A DNA stretch of 24,470 nucleotides, from the IMG/VR virus record IMGVR_UViG_3300044630_000040, positions 1-24,470 of that record. One strand, 5' to 3'. Below the pieces are notes generated by a model. The model did not search any database. It saw only the letters and a list, made by a program, of their open reading frames with translations, and was not told the DNA's origin. The stretch is from a virus. Position 1 is the first letter of the stretch; every line of letters starts with the position of its first letter. The translations under genes and the position numbers were made by a program. Below are positions 3,459 through 10,406 of the stretch, piece after piece.

Positions 3459-4193
3459 CTACCCCCCAAAAAGTTTCTTCACTTCGTTATAGTTCTTGAC
3501 AAATCTAGACGCATCATATAAGTCGGATAATGCAAGTTTATCCGTTGGCACGGCGTCTCTGCAAGTAAAATCTAGTTGCTCTTTTGGCACTAAAATATAT
3601 TGGGCTATTGGGGTGCCTGCTTTGATTAGTGTTTCCCCGTCAAGCACATGCCACATAAGCTGGACATTCATGGAAGCGGGGCCTGCGTCTCGCGGGAAAA
3701 AGCCGGGGATCACGCTAAATCGGTTTTCTTCGGATAGTGGCAGCGGCATTTCCATAAGGTAGTAGCCTTTGGGGACGTTACACCGCCAGCCTGTGTTTAT
3801 TTTTATGATTGTGCGAAGGGTATCGGCGGGCCATTCTTCCCAAAAATCCGCGAGTTGATTAGGAGAGTGGTAACTGATCGATTCTTGGTTACGAGCGCAC
3901 AACCACGAAAAATTAATTGAATCGTCTTTGTTTGTAGTTATAACAATGTCTTGCCAAGTGCGCATGATCCAGCCATGCCGTTGGATAGTAAATATGCCGG
4001 GACACCGCGCAGTATGTATAAAATTTTTGTGCCGCCACTTAGGGTCTTTGCGTATCTCGGAGAAATCATTTAACGCTTTAATTGCCCAAGGGTGTTTGTA
4101 ATCTCGGGCGGGAATAAGCGGCATCATTTCTGCCACGCCGGGAGTTTCGTTTATAAATTCTATTTTAGGTTTGCGCGTAAATAAATTAAGCAT
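3459..4193 (-). CDS. Beta-rich protein of unknown function ending the enzyme island
   Basis: A 244-residue protein. It begins with NLFTRKPKIEFINETPGVAE and IPARDYKHPWAIKALNDFSE. The centre has ARCPGIFTIQRHGWIMRTWQ and DIVITTNKDDSINFSW, then TIIKINTGWRCNVPKGYYLM, RFSVIPGFFPRDAG, NVQLMWHVLDGETLIKAGTP and IAQYILVPKEQ. The order CPxxF, GWxM, W, IxTGW, PxGY, IPG, aGxPIAQ vaguely recalls DUF6065-type proteins and the jelly-roll of dUTPase or dCTP deaminase, but no catalytic motif is clear. The ATG at 4193 has AGGGA 9 bases upstream and overlaps the previous gene by 8 bases. I do not name a function. Confidence 0.7.
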   Translation of the reverse strand: MLNLFTRKPKIEFINETPGVAEMMPLIPARDYKHPWAIKALNDFSEIRKDPKWRHKNFIHTARCPGIFTIQRHGWIMRTWQDIVITTNKDDSINFSWLCARNQESISYHSPNQLADFWEEWPADTLRTIIKINTGWRCNVPKGYYLMEMPLPLSEENRFSVIPGFFPRDAGPASMNVQLMWHVLDGETLIKAGTPIAQYILVPKEQLDFTCRDAVPTDKLALSDLYDASRFVKNYNEVKKLFGG

Positions 4194-4701
4194 GGATAAG
4201 GTTCCCTGAAATACTGATACGGACATCCGACCCCATGTTCTTCGCCACTTTATGTTTTGCCCACGCAGGGAACATATATAAGTGCCCCACTTGCGGGGTT
4301 ATAGAAGACATGCCCCCCTCAAACTCAAAACAAAGCACCCCCGCTCCCGGTGGCACGGCTACGTAATACACAAACGCAGCGGCTGCGCCATTACCTTCAT
4401 GATTGTGCAGACTGGTGCTTTCTAAGGGTCTATGAATTTGCGACCAGATGGTTTGTATAGTGAACCCTTTACCAGTAAACATAGCCCCTAGTTCGGTAAG
4501 TAGTTTGTACCCTTCGGTATTCACTTCTGGAGAAAAAGCCGTATCCTCAAATAACGCATACCGTGGGTCGTTAGATAGTCTGTTTTGCTGCGCCATTACT
4601 TGGGTAGCTAACAGGTTGTTATCTACATTCTCAACAAGCCAATGCTCAGCAAAAACTTCGTAGAGACAGATACTGCCTAAACGACGGGGCGCTATATTCA
4701 T
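4186..4701 (-). CDS. 2OG-Fe(II) oxygenase-like protein, HxH type, second copy
   Basis: A 171-residue protein with the same layout as the gene just upstream: WSQIHRPLESTSLHNHEGNG with H99-x-H101, then AAFVYYVAVPPGAGVLCFEF, a GHLYMFPAWAKHKVAKNMGS stretch with H150, and R161 (SDVRISISGNLI). The N-terminal half (YEVFAEHWLVENVDNNLLAT) and a helix pair match the family. Little identity to the neighbour remains, so duplication, if it happened, is old. It begins one base after the previous stop and overlaps the next gene by 8 bases. Substrate unknown. Confidence 0.76.
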   Translation of the reverse strand: MNIAPRRLGSICLYEVFAEHWLVENVDNNLLATQVMAQQNRLSNDPRYALFEDTAFSPEVNTEGYKLLTELGAMFTGKGFTIQTIWSQIHRPLESTSLHNHEGNGAAAAFVYYVAVPPGAGVLCFEFEGGMSSITPQVGHLYMFPAWAKHKVAKNMGSDVRISISGNLIHA

Positions 4702-4702
4702 A

Positions 4703-5266
4703 TTAAAACTCGCATTTTATGTTGAACGCAACGGTGGTTCTGGTCTGCTCACAAGGCAATACGTAGTGCAACAAATGCGCGGGAAACAAAACTATATCGC
4801 CTTCTTTTGCTTCAACAAGGCGCTTTTCTGCGGGGAACAAACTAGACCCACTAGCCGCGTGGCTAAAAAATACAGTTTTGTTTTCTTCTTTAAGCTCAAG
4901 AAGATATATACCTGACAGGCTTACACCGTATTCTAAGTGCCTATGCACCTCTTGATAGTCCCTCTGCCCGTACCGGTTGTACCAGATGTGGGTTACTGTA
5001 GAAGCTTTTGGCTGCTTCAACGGAAGATCAGAAAACAAACGATCTACCGCAGGGTAGACGGCTTGCGTTATAAGGTCAATATACTTAGTGTGCTTGCTTT
5101 CTTGTGAGAAATATTCGGTATTTACCTCGCACATCCAATTACCCCGGTGCTGATCTTGGGTTGTTGGCAGTAATTTTTCAATCTCTGCTAGTAGCTGAAC
5201 CTTGAGTACTTCATGCTGTTGTACGGGCTCCCAAAACACAAAGTCGGTTATGAAAATATGTTTCAT
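4703..5266 (-). CDS. 2OG-Fe(II) oxygenase-like protein, HxH type
   Basis: A 187-residue protein of the TIGR02466-like (2OG-FeII_Oxy_5) layout. The core is HIWYNRYGQRDYQEVHRHLE, then YGVSLSGIYLLELKEENKTV, GDIVLFPAHLLHYVLPCEQT and RTTVAFNI. H108 and H110 sit where HxD would be, with H167 as the distal ligand and R176 for 2-oxoglutarate. The LSGIYLLEL stretch is characteristic of the family. The ATG at 5266 overlaps the previous stop by 4 bases; a GTG start at 5275 would lie deeper inside that gene. Substrate unknown. The spacing to the next gene is one base. Confidence 0.8.
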   Translation of the reverse strand: MKHIFITDFVFWEPVQQHEVLKVQLLAEIEKLLPTTQDQHRGNWMCEVNTEYFSQESKHTKYIDLITQAVYPAVDRLFSDLPLKQPKASTVTHIWYNRYGQRDYQEVHRHLEYGVSLSGIYLLELKEENKTVFFSHAASGSSLFPAEKRLVEAKEGDIVLFPAHLLHYVLPCEQTRTTVAFNIKCEF

Positions 5267-5829
5267 ATGAACCACGTAATGACTGAATACCGCACGCCCT
5301 TGGTAATAGGCATAATCTCATGAGGGTACATGAAGTTTGAGGGGAACAAAATAGCAGCTCCTTTTGGCGGCTTTATCTGCATAGCACGGTCGAAGAACCC
5401 CCACTCCCCTCCTTCGTAATCGTCATTCAACGCAAAAGAGCAAGATATACTGCGAGGGCGTCCTTTAAATGAATCAGTGTGCTGGGTATAAAACTGACCC
5501 TCCGTATACCGTAAAAGTTCGTACCCAGAGTCTTCTTGTACAAAAACATCCGGGAATTTACTCCGGTACTTATTTATAGCGTTCCCCGCAGACGCAAAAA
5601 TGTACCTATCTAACTTCCTACGAACCTTTAGGTTTTGTTGCATTACGGAGTTTTGAGACAGAATAATAGTGCTGGCACTTCGTATGTTTTTATCAATTTT
5701 TGCCTCGGAGCCTACTACTGTGTTTAGCCACTCATCCGAAGCAGTATATTCTGCCAATATAGCGTCACATAACGCGGGCGTTATCGCGTTATCAAGAACC
5801 ATTATGTAATCTCGAAGATCGTAAGTCAT
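5263..5829 (-). CDS. 2OG-Fe(II) oxygenase, prolyl hydroxylase type (complete HxD...H...R)
   Basis: A 188-residue enzyme with all canonical residues: H117-x-D119 (YTQHTDSFKGRP), H170 (SNFMYPHEIM) for iron, and R180 (TKGVRYSVITWF) for 2-oxoglutarate. Further family features are ITPALCDAILAEY at the N-terminus, SISCSFALNDDYEGGEWGFF and KPPKGAAILFPS, where the GGEWxFF strand is typical of PKHD or P4H-type proteins. It should hydroxylate a protein or small-molecule substrate using 2-oxoglutarate, oxygen and Fe(II). It starts in an ATGA overlap with the radical SAM gene and ends in an ATGA overlap with the next oxygenase. Confidence 0.88.
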   Translation of the reverse strand: MTYDLRDYIMVLDNAITPALCDAILAEYTASDEWLNTVVGSEAKIDKNIRSASTIILSQNSVMQQNLKVRRKLDRYIFASAGNAINKYRSKFPDVFVQEDSGYELLRYTEGQFYTQHTDSFKGRPRSISCSFALNDDYEGGEWGFFDRAMQIKPPKGAAILFPSNFMYPHEIMPITKGVRYSVITWFI

Positions 5830-7307
5830 GCCGCCACCAAAGATTGTGCACTGGCAGGGAGCCGCACGGATAGGTTTAACTTATTCTGTTTGTATGCGTG
5901 TACCGCGCTATAAATACGGGGAGCGTCCCTATTAAACTGATTAGCATGTAAGTCAAAAAAAGAGTCATCACATATTCTTGACCCTTGCATAGCCCGCAAC
6001 CCAAAGTTGTAAGTAGGATCCATATGCATGTCTTCTAAGTCTTCATACAACCGGATTGCGTCAAAAATATTCATATGCTCGTTAGTCCACATAAAATCAT
6101 CTTTATAAACACCGGTGTAATCGCCTCGGTCTATCTCGCGATACCCGTATTTTTCGTAATCTTCAAACATTTTTGAGGCTGGGGTAAACACCCCCGACAC
6201 CCCGCGCGTACCTATTTTTAACGCCGCAGGGTTGTATGACTCTCCTTGCCAGTAATCGCATAACCATTTTTTTGTTTGCAAAATAGATTCGATGGGTTCA
6301 TGGGGGAGCCCTATGATAAGGCCCAAGGTACCCCGATATTTTTTAGAACCGTTATTTTTGAAGTACTCTTTGATACGCACAAGCCCGTCTTTCATTTCGT
6401 CAGGATGCATACCTTTACCAATAGCTTTTCCTGCTTCGTGATGAAATGTTTCTACCCCGTAAAAGTGACCTAAAAAATTCATACGAAGTAGCTCTGGCAT
6501 TTCTTGCGGACGGCGTATTAAAAGATCAGCGCGTAGATAGCCAGCAAATAAAGGGCTGAAATTTAGCCGCTCAACCACGTTTGCAAATTTAGTGATCTTG
6601 TCTGTATGGTCGTTAAAAGTCTCATCGGCAACAATATATTTAGACACACCGAACCGGTCGTATGCATCCTGTAGCTGCTCTCGAAAATCGTCCGCTGTAC
6701 GAGAATGATCTTCTTTAACCCCTAATACGGGGAAATTACAGAACGCGCATTTAAATCGGCACCCGCGTGCTAGTTCCACTCCAAGCCACTCATAAGGCTG
6801 TAGAAAATCCCGATCCTGATACTTAATCATGTAACTAGGCATGGGGTAAGCAGGGTATGCTTTTGTAGCATCGATAGTTTTTACGCCGCCCCGAAGAAGA
6901 AATTGAGGGCGGGGGCCGTTACTGAAAAGGTAGGCTAACAAAGCAAGTAAAGCCTGTTCGCCGTAGCCGCCGATTAGATAGTCAATGTACTCGTGGTTGT
7001 ACGGCCAAATATTTGGCCCGCCTACAATAATTTTTATATGAGGGTATTCTTCACGTAACCACGCCAAAAATTGAACCGGAAACAAATCTTTGGCGTAAAA
7101 CATAAAACTAAACCCAAAGAACTTAGTATCCGCGTGAACGCGGGTTCTTGTAAGCTGCTTTAACTCGTCAAGAGTCCAGTATTGCAAGTAATCTATAACT
7201 TCTACATCCCAGTCATAGCCCCGCAAGAAATGAGCAATTCTATATGGCCCCGGAGAACGCGTTGGGGTTAGTGTTCCTATATTAGTAAACAGAACACAAT
7301 GATTCAT
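5826..7307 (-). CDS. Radical SAM enzyme with N-terminal Rossmann (B12-binding-like) domain
   Basis: A 493-residue enzyme. Residues 1-130 form a Rossmann-like domain with the layout of B12-binding radical SAM proteins (RIAHFLRGYDWDVEVIDYL, KIIVGGPNIW at 92-101, YIDYLIGGYGEQALLALL), but the DxHxxG cobalamin ligand motif is not visible. Residues 175-400 are the radical SAM barrel: C183-x3-C187-x2-C190 (ARGCRFKCAFCNF) binds the 4Fe-4S cluster, followed by KYIVADETFNDH, YGVETFHHEAGKAIGKGM and TLGLIIGLPHEP. Residues 400-493 are an extra C-terminal part. Many such enzymes are methyltransferases or do C-C and C-S chemistry. It lies inside the coupled chain with 4-base overlaps on both sides. Confidence 0.88.
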   Translation of the reverse strand: MNHCVLFTNIGTLTPTRSPGPYRIAHFLRGYDWDVEVIDYLQYWTLDELKQLTRTRVHADTKFFGFSFMFYAKDLFPVQFLAWLREEYPHIKIIVGGPNIWPYNHEYIDYLIGGYGEQALLALLAYLFSNGPRPQFLLRGGVKTIDATKAYPAYPMPSYMIKYQDRDFLQPYEWLGVELARGCRFKCAFCNFPVLGVKEDHSRTADDFREQLQDAYDRFGVSKYIVADETFNDHTDKITKFANVVERLNFSPLFAGYLRADLLIRRPQEMPELLRMNFLGHFYGVETFHHEAGKAIGKGMHPDEMKDGLVRIKEYFKNNGSKKYRGTLGLIIGLPHEPIESILQTKKWLCDYWQGESYNPAALKIGTRGVSGVFTPASKMFEDYEKYGYREIDRGDYTGVYKDDFMWTNEHMNIFDAIRLYEDLEDMHMDPTYNFGLRAMQGSRICDDSFFDLHANQFNRDAPRIYSAVHAYKQNKLNLSVRLPASAQSLVAA

Positions 7308-7885
7308 AGAATGGTTACGGGGAGTTTATTGTCCGTTGGGGTAGGAAGCTGTTGTTTTTGTATGTCAAAAAATGACCACGCTTTATCCCCATTAGCTCGT
7401 ACATAGTGCATAAAAACCTGTAGGTACTGACTGCCGTTAAATGCTTCCCGCCAATGTGGGGCTTCGCAGCCCATATACATTACTGCATCACCGGGTTCAA
7501 GCTCTACAGCAACGGCTGTTCCGTCTGGTCGCTCGATGTATATAGGCCAGTCCGCATTTTTTCGTAGATTGAGGGTCAAACTGATCTCACAAGCAGGACG
7601 GTCTACATGCCGAACAAGAACATTTCCTTGCTCGTAAATTCTAGAATACACATAAGTCGGCAACACGGGCTCCCCCAGTATTTCCGATACTTGCGGTATC
7701 TTCGACACTAACAACCGTACAAACGGCAGGTAGTTATAGACGTTAACTATGTCTGGGAAGTTTGGGTCGGGCACACACTTTTTGTGGGTATCAGACAAAA
7801 AAGCGGAGGCAAACTGCTCCGCTGCGTATTTGGGAATAAAATCCCGCACCACCACATAGTGGTTAGACAACAGCATTCGATTCAT
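7304..7885 (-). CDS. 2OG-Fe(II) oxygenase-like protein (HxD...H)
   Basis: A 193-residue protein of the 2-oxoglutarate/Fe(II) oxygenase family, prolyl 4-hydroxylase-like. The facial triad is visible as H93-x-D95 (VRHVDRPACEISLTLNL) and H144 (CEAPHWREAF). The double-stranded beta-helix strands are EISLTLNL, PIYIERPDGTAVAVELEPGD, AVMYMG and YLQVFMHYV. Arg at 163 could bind 2-oxoglutarate but the usual spacing is unclear. Similar proteins occur in marine and freshwater phages, with substrates unknown. It overlaps the cupin and radical SAM genes by 4 bases each (ATGA), so translation is probably coupled. Confidence 0.84.
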   Translation of the reverse strand: MNRMLLSNHYVVVRDFIPKYAAEQFASAFLSDTHKKCVPDPNFPDIVNVYNYLPFVRLLVSKIPQVSEILGEPVLPTYVYSRIYEQGNVLVRHVDRPACEISLTLNLRKNADWPIYIERPDGTAVAVELEPGDAVMYMGCEAPHWREAFNGSQYLQVFMHYVRANGDKAWSFFDIQKQQLPTPTDNKLPVTIL

Positions 7886-8238
7886 AGTAGATGGTCTGTT
7901 ATGGGGTACGCTAAGTTAACACCTTCCGGCACCATCGAAGGATCTACGATGTCGTCAACATCCTCGCCAATACGAAGTGGGTGGATGCAATAGGCTACAG
8001 TATCTGGAACCAGCGCAACAAGCTCATGCTGCTTATCTTTTTTGATGTAGATCATGTGGGGGGCTGTAAAAATCGATGCCTGCCCTTCTACAGTTACTTG
8101 GAGTTTGCCAGCGGCCAGCAAAGTTAGATGGTCAAACTGATGAGTATGCCCGTGCTCAATATCCCCCGTGTTTTTAAAGTGCATCATGCGGCTAAACAAA
8201 TTAGCAACGCACCCTATTTTAACGTCTGGTTCTGGCAT
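7882..8238 (-). CDS. Cupin-fold metalloprotein
   Basis: A 118-residue single-domain cupin. H29, H31, H33, D36 and H37 lie in DIEHGHTHQFDHLTLLAAGK, the usual first cupin motif with an H-x-H pair and the following G; the second motif is HMIYIKKDKQH71ELVAL. Strands VTVEGQASIFTAP and VAYCIHPLR complete the barrel. Cupins of this size bind Fe, Zn, Ni or Mn and act as dioxygenases, epimerases or ligand sensors; the substrate cannot be told. The ATG at 8238 has GGAG 6 bases upstream and shares TAATG with the chaperone gene. It opens the enzyme island. Confidence 0.82.
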   Translation of the reverse strand: MPEPDVKIGCVANLFSRMMHFKNTGDIEHGHTHQFDHLTLLAAGKLQVTVEGQASIFTAPHMIYIKKDKQHELVALVPDTVAYCIHPLRIGEDVDDIVDPSMVPEGVNLAYPITDHLL

Positions 8239-8720
8239 TATGTACTCCACTGGGCTTCTGGGATAGGCGTAAAGTCTACCGGGGCGGTAGGAGGGCTGAC
8301 GGCAACCGCGCGTACAGTACTACGCCATGATAAGAAATCTGCTTGATTAAGTAAATAAGGATTTGACTGCGCGGGGTCAGCAACGGCGGGGATTGCGGCC
8401 CAATCTGTTTCGTCTAATAGTCCAACAGCGGTTGTCTTGTTTTGTGCCTGAATTTGTTCCGGAGTCGGCGGTGGGGGTGGCGCATGTTCTTCATCATACT
8501 TAGTCTGCCATACGGCAAGAGCCGCGTTTGCCCAATCCGGTAAAACGGTTATGTCTTGGTTCTGGGACAACGGACTAACAAACTCTATATGCCCAAAAGT
8601 GCTGTACCACTGCAATGCCCATACATCCGCTGGGACGCCACACCCAGATAGGTTAAGATAAGAATACGCAAACCCGTCTTTGTTGACGGTTGATGTTTCC
8701 GCAAGAATAACAAGCCTCAT
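8238..8720 (-). CDS. Tail fibre assembly chaperone-like protein
   Basis: A 160-residue protein. Residues 1-75 are a beta-rich part (MRLVILAETSTVNKDGFAYS, ADVWALQWYSTFGHIEF). A Pro/Gln-rich linker with PPPPPTPEQIQAQ follows. Residues 95-142 match the tail assembly chaperone pattern: KTTAVGLLDETDWAAIPAVA, then NQADFLSWRSTVRAVAVSPP, with LLDxTDW and the R-x3-R-A core. Such proteins help fold or attach tail fibres. The ATG overlaps the previous stop by 4 bases, and the TAA overlaps the cupin start by one base. It may serve the fibre just upstream. Confidence 0.76.
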   Translation of the reverse strand: MRLVILAETSTVNKDGFAYSYLNLSGCGVPADVWALQWYSTFGHIEFVSPLSQNQDITVLPDWANAALAVWQTKYDEEHAPPPPPTPEQIQAQNKTTAVGLLDETDWAAIPAVADPAQSNPYLLNQADFLSWRSTVRAVAVSPPTAPVDFTPIPEAQWST

Positions 8721-9001
8721 TTTAACCTCTTCGTTTCTGTAGCGGCCAACAGCATTTGGGTGCTCATCTCATTAGCTTTAACCATTTCGTTCCGGAAACT
8801 CTCTACTGCAACACCTGTTCTACGCTGCTGACCAGAGTTTTCGATGAGTAACATAGGTAGCCACGAAACCGCACACTGCCAATCTTCGACTTCTTTCCCA
8901 GTGTTCATATCCACACCGTTTACTTTGGTAAACCACGCACATTGCATCTGCACACAATCGTTTTTAATCAGGGGACAAAAGCTGCCGGATTTGATTTGCA
9001 T
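8717..9001 (-). CDS. Small cysteine-rich protein, CPLIKNDC type
   Basis: A 94-residue protein. C9 (FCPLIKNDC16), C21 (QCAWF) and C43 (DWQCAVSWLP) are in the first half, followed by a helical second half (VESFRNEMVKANEMSTQMLL). Four cysteines in this spacing may bind a metal ion or cluster. I recall similar sequences from phage genomes, next to fibre and chaperone genes, with no function. The ATG begins one base after the YkgJ-like stop and the stop overlaps the next ATG by 4 bases (ATGA). Confidence 0.7.
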   Translation of the reverse strand: MQIKSGSFCPLIKNDCVQMQCAWFTKVNGVDMNTGKEVEDWQCAVSWLPMLLIENSGQQRRTGVAVESFRNEMVKANEMSTQMLLAATETKRLK

Positions 9002-9002
9002 A

Positions 9003-9437
9003 TCACTCTATCTTTAAGTTGTGAAACTCTGGGCTACCAAATCGGTTCCACGCCCCTTCTAGTTCATATAGAAGATTTTTATTTTCCCGCAATGCCCACA
9101 ATAATAACCAGTTAAGGTAACGCGCCTTCATGGGGGTGCCTGTCTCTTTAATTTGAAAGTACACCACCCCTTCTTTTACCCGTCGAATAATAATTAAATT
9201 ACTGAGGGTGGGCTTCATCCACTCTGGAAAAGCATAGCTCGATACCCACTCACAAAAAAATTCTTTGCATACGTCATCGCGCTCTTCGTATACGGTGCAT
9301 TTCTCACCCACGTAAAAACATGGTTTACCGGGATAATGCTGCACCCCGAAAACCTCTGCTTCAGACCACCCATCGCAACACCTATGGCAGTCCCCACACT
9401 GTCTACCTTTAAATATCGGAATTGTTTTTTGCGTCAT
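9003..9437 (-). CDS. YkgJ-like cysteine-cluster protein (putative Zn/Fe binding)
   Basis: A 144-residue protein with the CxxCxxCC cluster of the YkgJ family: C14-x2-C17-x2-C20-C21 (RQCGDCHRCCDGW). The second half follows the family layout: YPGKPC40, C47-x-Y, R-x3-C57, F-x-C62-E-W. That gives eight cysteines able to bind zinc or iron. The remaining residues form an alpha/beta part (LIIIRRVKEGVVYFQIKETG). Family members are usually annotated as putative zinc or iron chelating proteins of unknown role. It starts 3 bases after the tail fibre gene and is followed by another cysteine-rich gene and the enzyme island, so it could support the iron enzymes or modify virion proteins. Confidence 0.82.
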   Translation of the reverse strand: MTQKTIPIFKGRQCGDCHRCCDGWSEAEVFGVQHYPGKPCFYVGEKCTVYEERDDVCKEFFCEWVSSYAFPEWMKPTLSNLIIIRRVKEGVVYFQIKETGTPMKARYLNWLLLWALRENKNLLYELEGAWNRFGSPEFHNLKIE

Positions 9438-9440
9438 TAG

Positions 9441-10406
9441 TTAATTTTTAGAAGCAATAATCACGTCAATATACTGCACTGCGAGATTGATTGCATTACC
9501 CGTAAATGTACCTGTACCACTGCTAAAACTGAATGGGTGGGTGTGCGCCCCATCGCCGCCCGCCCCGCCAGTGGGGTTAGTACCCGGTGCAGTCATGTAG
9601 TTACCCGGAACCGCGCCACGTTTAGCATTACCAGAGCCGCCCGCAGGATGAGAGTGGCTTGGAATCTGGGGGGTCGTAAGTGTCGTAGAACCTGCTGAAC
9701 CCGAAACTCCGGTAATCGACACTGAACCAGATGGAGTCTGAGAAGCAAATGCTGTAGTAAACGCCACCGAACCGCCCGTACCGCCACCCGTACCAGACAC
9801 AACACGCAACGCTTTGTTGTTTTGAGTCGTTACTTGAGTCCACCCTGTAGGCGCACTTGCCTGATAAAACAACATAACGGTACCGGAGGGAATAGCGTTT
9901 GGAGCGGGGGAGCTTGTCCAAGTCGTACCGTTCGAAGTGAGCAGATTGCCCGAGGAGCCCGGAGCTACAAACTGAACGCCCGAAGTCCCGTTACCTAACA
10001 GTACGTTGTTAGCAGTAAGCGCCGATTGTCCAGTACCCCCACTAACTACCTCCAATATCGCAGCGTTATCCGGCTTGATATTTGTACCATCAGAATAAAC
10101 AGAGCGTTCTGCCGGGTAGGCCACGAATACATCTTTAGTTCCAGCGGAGAAATTTGTCTTAGTGGGAGCCCCCGCACTAGAGGCTAATACTGTGTCTCGG
10201 GATAGCGTAGTACCAGAAGCGGTATATGTACCGATACCCACTTCCCATTCGGATGAACCCTGAGCCGAGATAGTGTAGTAGGTTGTATTGCCGTCACCTA
10301 TTACAGAAAACGATTGAAACCCTATTACGGCCCCGCCAAGAGTGAGAGTGCCAGTACCGGCAGTTGTAGTAGTTTCTTTAACTCGATCCGCTAGTACTAA
10401 CGGCAT
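9441..10406 (-). CDS. Tail fibre with collar-type domain
   Basis: A 321-residue fibre protein. Residues 1-110 hold an N-terminal attachment part (MPLVLADRVKETTTTAGTGT, EWEVGIGTYTASG, TKDVFVAYPAER). Residues 120-170 are the GGTGQSALTANNVLLGNG stretch common in phage fibre shafts. A phage tail collar domain follows near residues 173-205 (SGTVMLFYQASAPTGWTQVT). The rest is a Gly/Ser/His-rich tip with HSHPAGG and AHTHPFSF, where paired His-x-His could bind metal ions as in other collar tips, ending in YIDVIIASKN. GAGGT lies 5 bases before the ATG. It probably contacts the host surface. Confidence 0.84.
   Translation of the reverse strand: MPLVLADRVKETTTTAGTGTLTLGGAVIGFQSFSVIGDGNTTYYTISAQGSSEWEVGIGTYTASGTTLSRDTVLASSAGAPTKTNFSAGTKDVFVAYPAERSVYSDGTNIKPDNAAILEVVSGGTGQSALTANNVLLGNGTSGVQFVAPGSSGNLLTSNGTTWTSSPAPNAIPSGTVMLFYQASAPTGWTQVTTQNNKALRVVSGTGGGTGGSVAFTTAFASQTPSGSVSITGVSGSAGSTTLTTPQIPSHSHPAGGSGNAKRGAVPGNYMTAPGTNPTGGAGGDGAHTHPFSFSSGTGTFTGNAINLAVQYIDVIIASKN

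Follow-up and report, generated by a model that had tools for sequence, protein, structure and literature searches.

Why should a phage carry six putative metalloenzyme genes in a row between its tail fibres and its lysis genes, and what might their products act on? The window studied here, the whole 24,470 bases of a stretch from an IMG/VR virus record, encodes on its minus strand portal and capsid, then tail genes, fibres, the enzyme island and finally lysis genes, and its portal protein is kin to those of HTVC027P-, Pag-Yong1- and CRP-901-type podoviruses (about 41-45% identity). A sequence-only reading of this DNA had described an island of six enzymes, and we found all six genes in the classes which it named, although the cupin ends at 8250 and not at 8238. 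The island occupies 4186-8250 on the minus strand, with the genes in the order cupin, ox4, radical SAM enzyme, ox3, ox2 and ox1, where ox1 to ox4 are 2OG oxygenases. That the genes lie in one direction is also correct, but it is uninformative alone, since the whole morphogenesis region is on the same strand. Most of the genes overlap or abut, with overlaps of 4-13 bases or gaps of 1 base. The run also takes in a DUF6065-type gene (3459-4226) at its far end, and upstream it extends through a tail-fibre-assembly-like gene (g8238 or TFA, 8238-8720), a gene for a small four-cysteine protein which marks the fibre region (g8717 or CPL, 8717-9001), a YkgJ-like gene (9003-9437) and the gene for a collar-type tail fibre (g9441, 9441-10406), all on the minus strand. 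The DUF6065-type and YkgJ-like genes had been overlooked in the sequence-only reading; both recur beside such oxygenases elsewhere.

Are these genes likely to encode working enzymes? As judged from the alignments, each of the six proteins retains its predicted metal ligands, and degenerate active sites, which had been raised as a possible objection, were looked for and none was seen. The cupin (7882-8250) matched Cupin_2 below the cut-off both in the window (0.0064) and in a relative (L117, 7.8e-4), and its residues H35, H37, H41 and H75 are invariant; on this motif and the weak profile the protein can be placed, with some caution, in the cupin superfamily. ox3 (5263-5829) is a PF13640 oxygenase (1.9e-17) with conserved H117, D119 (D or E), H170 and R180 (R or K), and its sequence matches in the PDB are P4H, PHD2, PiuC and LH3. 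ox2 (4703-5275, PF13759 1.4e-9) and ox1 (4186-4701, PF13759 3.8e-13) exceed the cut-off of the broader PF13759 family and do not reach the 62.5 bits of TIGR02466 (28.8 and 54.3 bits, respectively). Across 61 sequences H111, H113, H170 and R179 of ox2 and H99, H101, H150 and R161 of ox1 are invariant; the invariant H-x-H, which in both proteins replaces H-x-D/E, is a family-wide feature in this alignment.

The identity of ox4 (7304-7885) needs more comment. The protein belongs to phrog_2954 (E 2.3e-53), no Pfam family matched it at E up to 1 and a PDB sequence search with its profile returned zero matches. Its relatives were found by a profile scan, while a scan with the single sequence gave none. 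H93, D95, H144, R146 and Q156 are invariant in 44/44 aligned sequences, and both ox4 and ox3 carry the iron-ligand and 2OG motif, H-x-D/E followed by a second H and a distal basic residue. The AlphaFold2 model of ox4 (pLDDT 88.7) has a double-stranded beta-helix of the 2OG prolyl-hydroxylase type, for which the best Foldseek matches were the P4H of P. putida and PHD2 (E about 1e-8 to 1e-7) and VIA-align gave Z scores of 15-17 against 2OG oxygenases. Thus ox3 and ox4 both resemble protein hydroxylases; several of the leading structural matches of ox4, namely SnoN, HalB and HygX, are small-molecule enzymes. PHROGs name phrog_2954 and phrog_3531 "ferrochelatase", and the same name is given to the single fused protein which ox4 and ox3 form in T4-like phages. 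We found no match of ox4 to a ferrochelatase family, and the label is very probably wrong because the model matches P4H, PHD2 and other 2OG oxygenases. In HTVC023P-type pelagiphages, Wittmers reported that a "ferrochelatase" always adjoins a 2OG oxygenase (PMC9599517); most likely this is an oxygenase pair, ox4 with ox3 or a similar partner. The new assignment would correct a widespread annotation from which one or more published conclusions on iron and haem have been drawn (PMC9599517).

The gene between ox4 and ox3 encodes a radical SAM enzyme (5826-7307; PF04055, E 1.7e-12, 48.3 bits where the cut-off is 29.5), and the cysteines C183, C187 and C190 of its CxxxCxxC motif are invariant in eleven viral relatives. 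The match to the B12-binding domain PF02310 is under the cut-off (21.8 against 32.1 bits). The nearest solved structures are TokK, CysS and AprD4, and this kinship suggests cobalamin-dependent chemistry; TokK and CysS share with the window enzyme the B12-type and radical SAM domain sequence, but the similarity is low. The sequence-only reading regarded so many oxygenases together with a radical SAM enzyme as unusual. For the oxygenases alone this does not hold, as isolated cyanophages carry between 10 (PMC9964418) and 24 (PMC9602691) 2OG oxygenases, but the B12-type radical SAM member is indeed rare, with one weak match among 50,697 annotated phage records. In IMG/VR there are 29 viral relatives. 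In the tree the window enzyme groups with that of L005 (97/96) within a mostly viral clade, and inside this clade falls the sole close bacterial sequence, which comes from a Pseudomonadales MAG. The operon context of the best bacterial relative (L277, 40%) was considered as a clue to function and set aside, its flanking genes being apparent housekeeping genes and the sequence itself nesting among viral ones. In two viral contigs (L008 and L010) a Gly-rich fibre, DUF6065, PF13640 oxygenase and cupin-like genes precede the radical SAM gene, and in another (L029) a PF13759 oxygenase overlaps its end.

The DUF6065-type gene (phrog_7084, 8.1e-42) overlaps ox1, and its true start is probably near 4190. 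The window protein matched no Pfam family at E up to 1, and its relative in L010 gave a weak PF19541 match. Its AlphaFold2 model (pLDDT 90.4) shows a dUTPase-like fold: Foldseek found a dUTPase at E 1.5e-4, and VIA-align gave Z of about 10-11 over 109-131 aligned residues, all of the top 50 rows being dUTPases. The modelled protein would thus have the dUTPase fold, and we do not class it as a dUTPase because the likeness is one of fold with no sequence-family match. Such a fold brings DNA hypermodification to mind, which we rejected, the oxygenases here being of PF13640 and PF13759 and not of the Tet/JBP family. A 2OG oxygenase lies within 3 genes of a DUF6065-type gene at 38/45 nonredundant loci, as against 74/161 in the control (p 3e-6). 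At 29/45 loci a halogenase-family gene is found within 3 genes, and at the same number a Gly-rich gene is found within 6.

Does the same set of genes occur in other phages? A cupin scan of IMG/VR gave 25 nonredundant contigs with a cupin and then ox4; as loci were selected by ox4 or cupin, all the following counts describe order given presence and not frequency among all phages. ox3 comes next in 23 of these contigs, directly in 18 and past an insert in 5, and the remaining two end there or have a weaker ox3 relative. Cupin and ox4 overlap by at least 16 bases or by 4 in 22/25. Each insert encodes one more 2OG oxygenase-like protein (in L404 with a PF13640 match of 0.0024), to which a GDSL-like protein and a carbamoyltransferase are added in L118; the insert of the window is the radical SAM gene. 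The ox4 profile scan gave 49 nonredundant loci with strong matches, in which ox4 is fused to ox3 (28), stands directly before it (8) or is parted from it by an insert (3); ox3 is upstream in 1, the contig ends in 2, and 7 are without a strong ox3, most of them with a weaker relative nearby. Upstream of cupin-ox4, a member of the CPL or TFA family lies within 3 genes in 23/25 contigs, and a g9441- or g293-type fibre within 4 genes in 24/25. The overall order is therefore fibre-CPL-TFA-cupin-ox4-(slot)-ox3, and the homologues are not single and scattered, the pattern which would have spoken against a common system. As for the proposal that the six enzymes form one pathway, a coupled core of cupin, ox4 and ox3 is supported because their order recurs and ox4 and ox3 are fused in many myoviruses, but ox1, ox2, the DUF6065-type protein and the radical SAM enzyme look swappable.

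In L120 a relative of g8238 (8094-8558) gave a match to the tail fiber assembly family phrog_4912 (0.0015) and a weak one to PF16778, Phage_tail_APC (0.012), and the position of this family in the gene order is the same among relatives. The small protein g8717 has four invariant cysteines in its alignment. The YkgJ-like protein (phrog_9155, E 5.6e-32), of the CxxCxxCC type, has eight cysteines conserved in 3 aligned sequences, and its relatives in L105 and L109 adjoin DUF6065 and 2OG oxygenases. Fibre-like genes, called partly by motif, lie within 5 genes of ox4 at 44/65 loci, as against 28/112 control genes at a distance of over 8 genes at these loci (p 4e-8); with such an internal control and motif-based calls, the p is approximate. 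In the related complete genomes HTVC027P and 023Pt_psg01, annotated oxygenases adjoin tail-collar and fibre genes. Some DUF6065-oxygenase pairs (L040-L048) are situated away from fibres.

In the lineage of the window the enzymes occupy a slot which follows the genes of the acidic repeat protein and of the collar fibres, and its contents differ among relatives: DUF6065 and an oxygenase in L037, an ox4-type protein in L199, ox2 between Gly-rich fibres in L204, ox4 and ox3 in L212, a cupin in L215, a cupin and three oxygenase-like genes in L234, and none of these in others. At least one oxygenase is present at 9/20 testable loci. Could the Gly-rich fibres be the specific partner? Within the lineage they show no association with oxygenases (Fisher p 1.0), and we dropped this candidate. 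A comparison of the composition of fibres with and without oxygenases (47 and 13 sequences) gave a lowest p of 0.010 over 20 residues, and none survives correction; composition thus favours neither the fibre nor another substrate. The lower GC of the island, noticed earlier from spot counts as a hint of different origin, is a real drop (0.452 on average, as against 0.505; the Mann-Whitney test gave p 7e-5 for GC and 0.017 for GC3), but it is not specific to the island because neighbouring genes of the fibre region are equally low (g8717 0.449, YkgJ-like 0.439, acidic repeat 0.461); we therefore did not take GC alone as a sign of horizontal origin.

What, then, is the substrate? Gene proximity alone cannot name it. 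Among the candidates of the sequence-only reading, a virion protein is favoured because a fibre neighbour is near-constant in the 25 contigs, but this neighbour is the g9441-type collar fibre and not the acidic repeat protein. We propose, with a probability of roughly 55%, that the island is a variable, swappable cassette which covalently modifies the phage's own tail fibre. The core of cupin, ox4 and ox3 would be translated serially, immediately behind fibre, four-cysteine protein and fibre-assembly-like protein, and ox4 and ox3, if catalytically active, would hydroxylate fibre side chains during fibre synthesis. Interchangeable enzymes, encoded in the slot that separates ox4 from ox3 and downstream of ox3, would further oxidise or decorate the fibre. 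The B12-type radical SAM enzyme would C-methylate or otherwise alter unactivated carbons, and the two PF13759 oxygenases with their dUTPase-fold DUF6065 partner may be the window's other interchangeable members. Exchange of cassette enzymes would change the receptor-binding surface, and perhaps this is where the benefit to the phage lies.

The chief rival is a role in the synthesis or decoration of a small molecule or of a surface polysaccharide such as a capsule, as Iyer 2021 proposed for a related cluster in a cyanophage; we think this unlikely, if well worth keeping in view. The S-SSM6a cluster was read as a secondary-metabolite or capsule-decorating system (PMC7824862), cassette relatives carry a carbamoyltransferase, a DegT aminotransferase and a weak GT25 match, glycosyltransferases adjoin the fused ox4-ox3 of S-SCSM2R, and TokK and CysS, among the nearest solved relatives of the radical SAM enzyme, work in antibiotic biosynthesis. 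However, the minimal cupin-ox4-ox3 set comes without any scaffold-building enzyme and yet keeps its fibre or assembly neighbours in 23-24/25 contigs, and carbamoyltransferase, halogenase and glycosyltransferase are absent from the window; that cupin-ox4-ox3 can stand bare next to a fibre favours the fibre as substrate. It is rather improbable that the oxygenases are auxiliary metabolic genes acting on host proteins or metabolism (translation factors, 2-oxoglutarate or nitrogen status), since a place in the late structural block, overlapping frames and near-constant fibre or assembly neighbours are not needed for host takeover, even though this is the customary published view of cyanophage and pelagiphage 2OG genes and the P. 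putida P4H, ox4's top Foldseek match, was solved with EF-Tu. A mere hot spot of recombination, low in GC and storing unrelated cargo without a common substrate, would suit the varying slot contents among close relatives and the low GC throughout the fibre region, but we consider it very improbable, as it leaves unexplained the fixed cupin-ox4-ox3 order, the ox4-ox3 fusion and the recurrence across unrelated podo- and myoviruses.

If the fibre is indeed the substrate, recurrence beside similar fibres in about two dozen independent contigs points to phages which tailor by chemical means the proteins with which they grip the host, and receptor-binding proteins would be diversified by chemistry as well as by sequence. 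Many 2OG oxygenases of aquatic phages have been classed as metabolic helpers without a target, and cupin-ox4-ox3 beside a fibre offers a common, testable one. In cyanophage Syn10 a DUF6065 homologue stands immediately after CPUG_00131, which is the viral halogenase VirX1 (PDB 6QGM, full-length match); VirX1 beside DUF6065 would fit a protein substrate. More tentatively, and with rather more doubt than confidence, we suggest a general maturation of phage fibres, in which receptor-binding fibres are first hydroxylated post-translationally and interchangeable chemistry then diversifies them, be it a B12-type radical SAM enzyme, a flavin halogenase such as VirX1, a carbamoyltransferase or a glycosyltransferase; the native substrate of VirX1 would then be a neighbouring fibre, and directly testable as such.

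How does this locus compare with known systems? Oxygenase-rich phages have been described before, and their oxygenases are treated as auxiliary metabolic genes (PMC9602691, PMC9964418, PMC9599517). The enzyme families are known; what appears to be new is the conserved operon, the corrected identity of ox4, the radical SAM variant and the link to VirX1, and we found no proposal of fibre modification by such oxygenases in the open-licence literature. The 2OG clusters of S-SCSM1 (PMC9602691), S-CREM1 (PMC9964418) and HTVC023P-type phages (PMC9599517) share with the window PF13640, PF13759, phrog_2954 and phrog_3531 and often lie beside tail fibres, but the sections of these papers available to us propose neither a fibre substrate nor the cupin-ox4-ox3 order, and the slot of the clusters presented there is without a B12-type radical SAM gene. 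The S-SSM6a cluster has a halogenase, carbamoyltransferases, 2OG oxygenases and a cupin (Iyer 2021, PMC7824862) and is thus alike in combining 2OG oxygenases with a cupin-like protein and other enzymes of the tailoring kind. Clusters of this type also include a HemK-like methylase; this methylase, the halogenase and the carbamoyltransferase are all absent from the ten proteins encoded at 3459-9437 and present beside relatives, whereas the window has ox4, the radical SAM enzyme and ox3 in a row, together with DUF6065. The VirX1 region of Syn10 shares with the window the DUF6065 homologue, a long run of small genes downstream, among them several 2OG-like ones, and neighbours from the fibre region, but Syn10 has halogenases in place of the radical SAM enzyme of the window.

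The families phrog_2954 and phrog_3531, to which the oxygenase ox4 (window 7304-7885) and a gene of a related locus (L122:9001-10158) belong, bear the PHROG name 'ferrochelatase', whereas the model of ox4 has a 2OG prolyl-hydroxylase-type fold; the same label is also carried in the GenBank entries of many cyanophages. Relatives of ox3 (window 5263-5829), among them L117:2690-3250, also match families that PHROGs calls 'DNA endonuclease V' or 'DNA endonuclease'; these names appear to be wrong, and the families to be 2OG oxygenases. In ox1 and ox2 (window 4186-5275) an H-x-H motif is invariant, in contrast to the H-x-D/E of most 2OG oxygenases.

In one related locus (L127:10157-17007) the genes after the ox4-ox3 fusion include glycosyltransferase-like, aminotransferase, hydroxylase-like and carbamoyltransferase genes; S-SCSM2R (L032) has glycosyltransferases together with a radical SAM maturase in that position. 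Large marine phage contigs (L002, L004 and L029) contain several radical SAM genes as well as Asp/Asn-hydroxylase-like and 2OG genes, interspersed with fibre-like genes. In two T4-like contigs another gene lies in the stretch from the cupin-like to the radical SAM genes: one of the Coq4 family in the first (L010:6533-7342), a desaturase-like one in the second (L008:5315-6088).

A YkgJ-like protein with eight conserved cysteines (window 9003-9437; L105:3884-4315; L109:10326-10784) recurs between DUF6065 and the 2OG oxygenases, beside Gly-rich fibres. The DUF6065-type protein itself (window 3459-4226), which has no sequence-family match, is predicted to adopt a dUTPase-like fold. In the fibre region of cyanophage Syn10 (L034:7443-9807) its homologue directly follows the viral halogenase VirX1 (CPUG_00131). 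A fibre may be the native substrate of VirX1.
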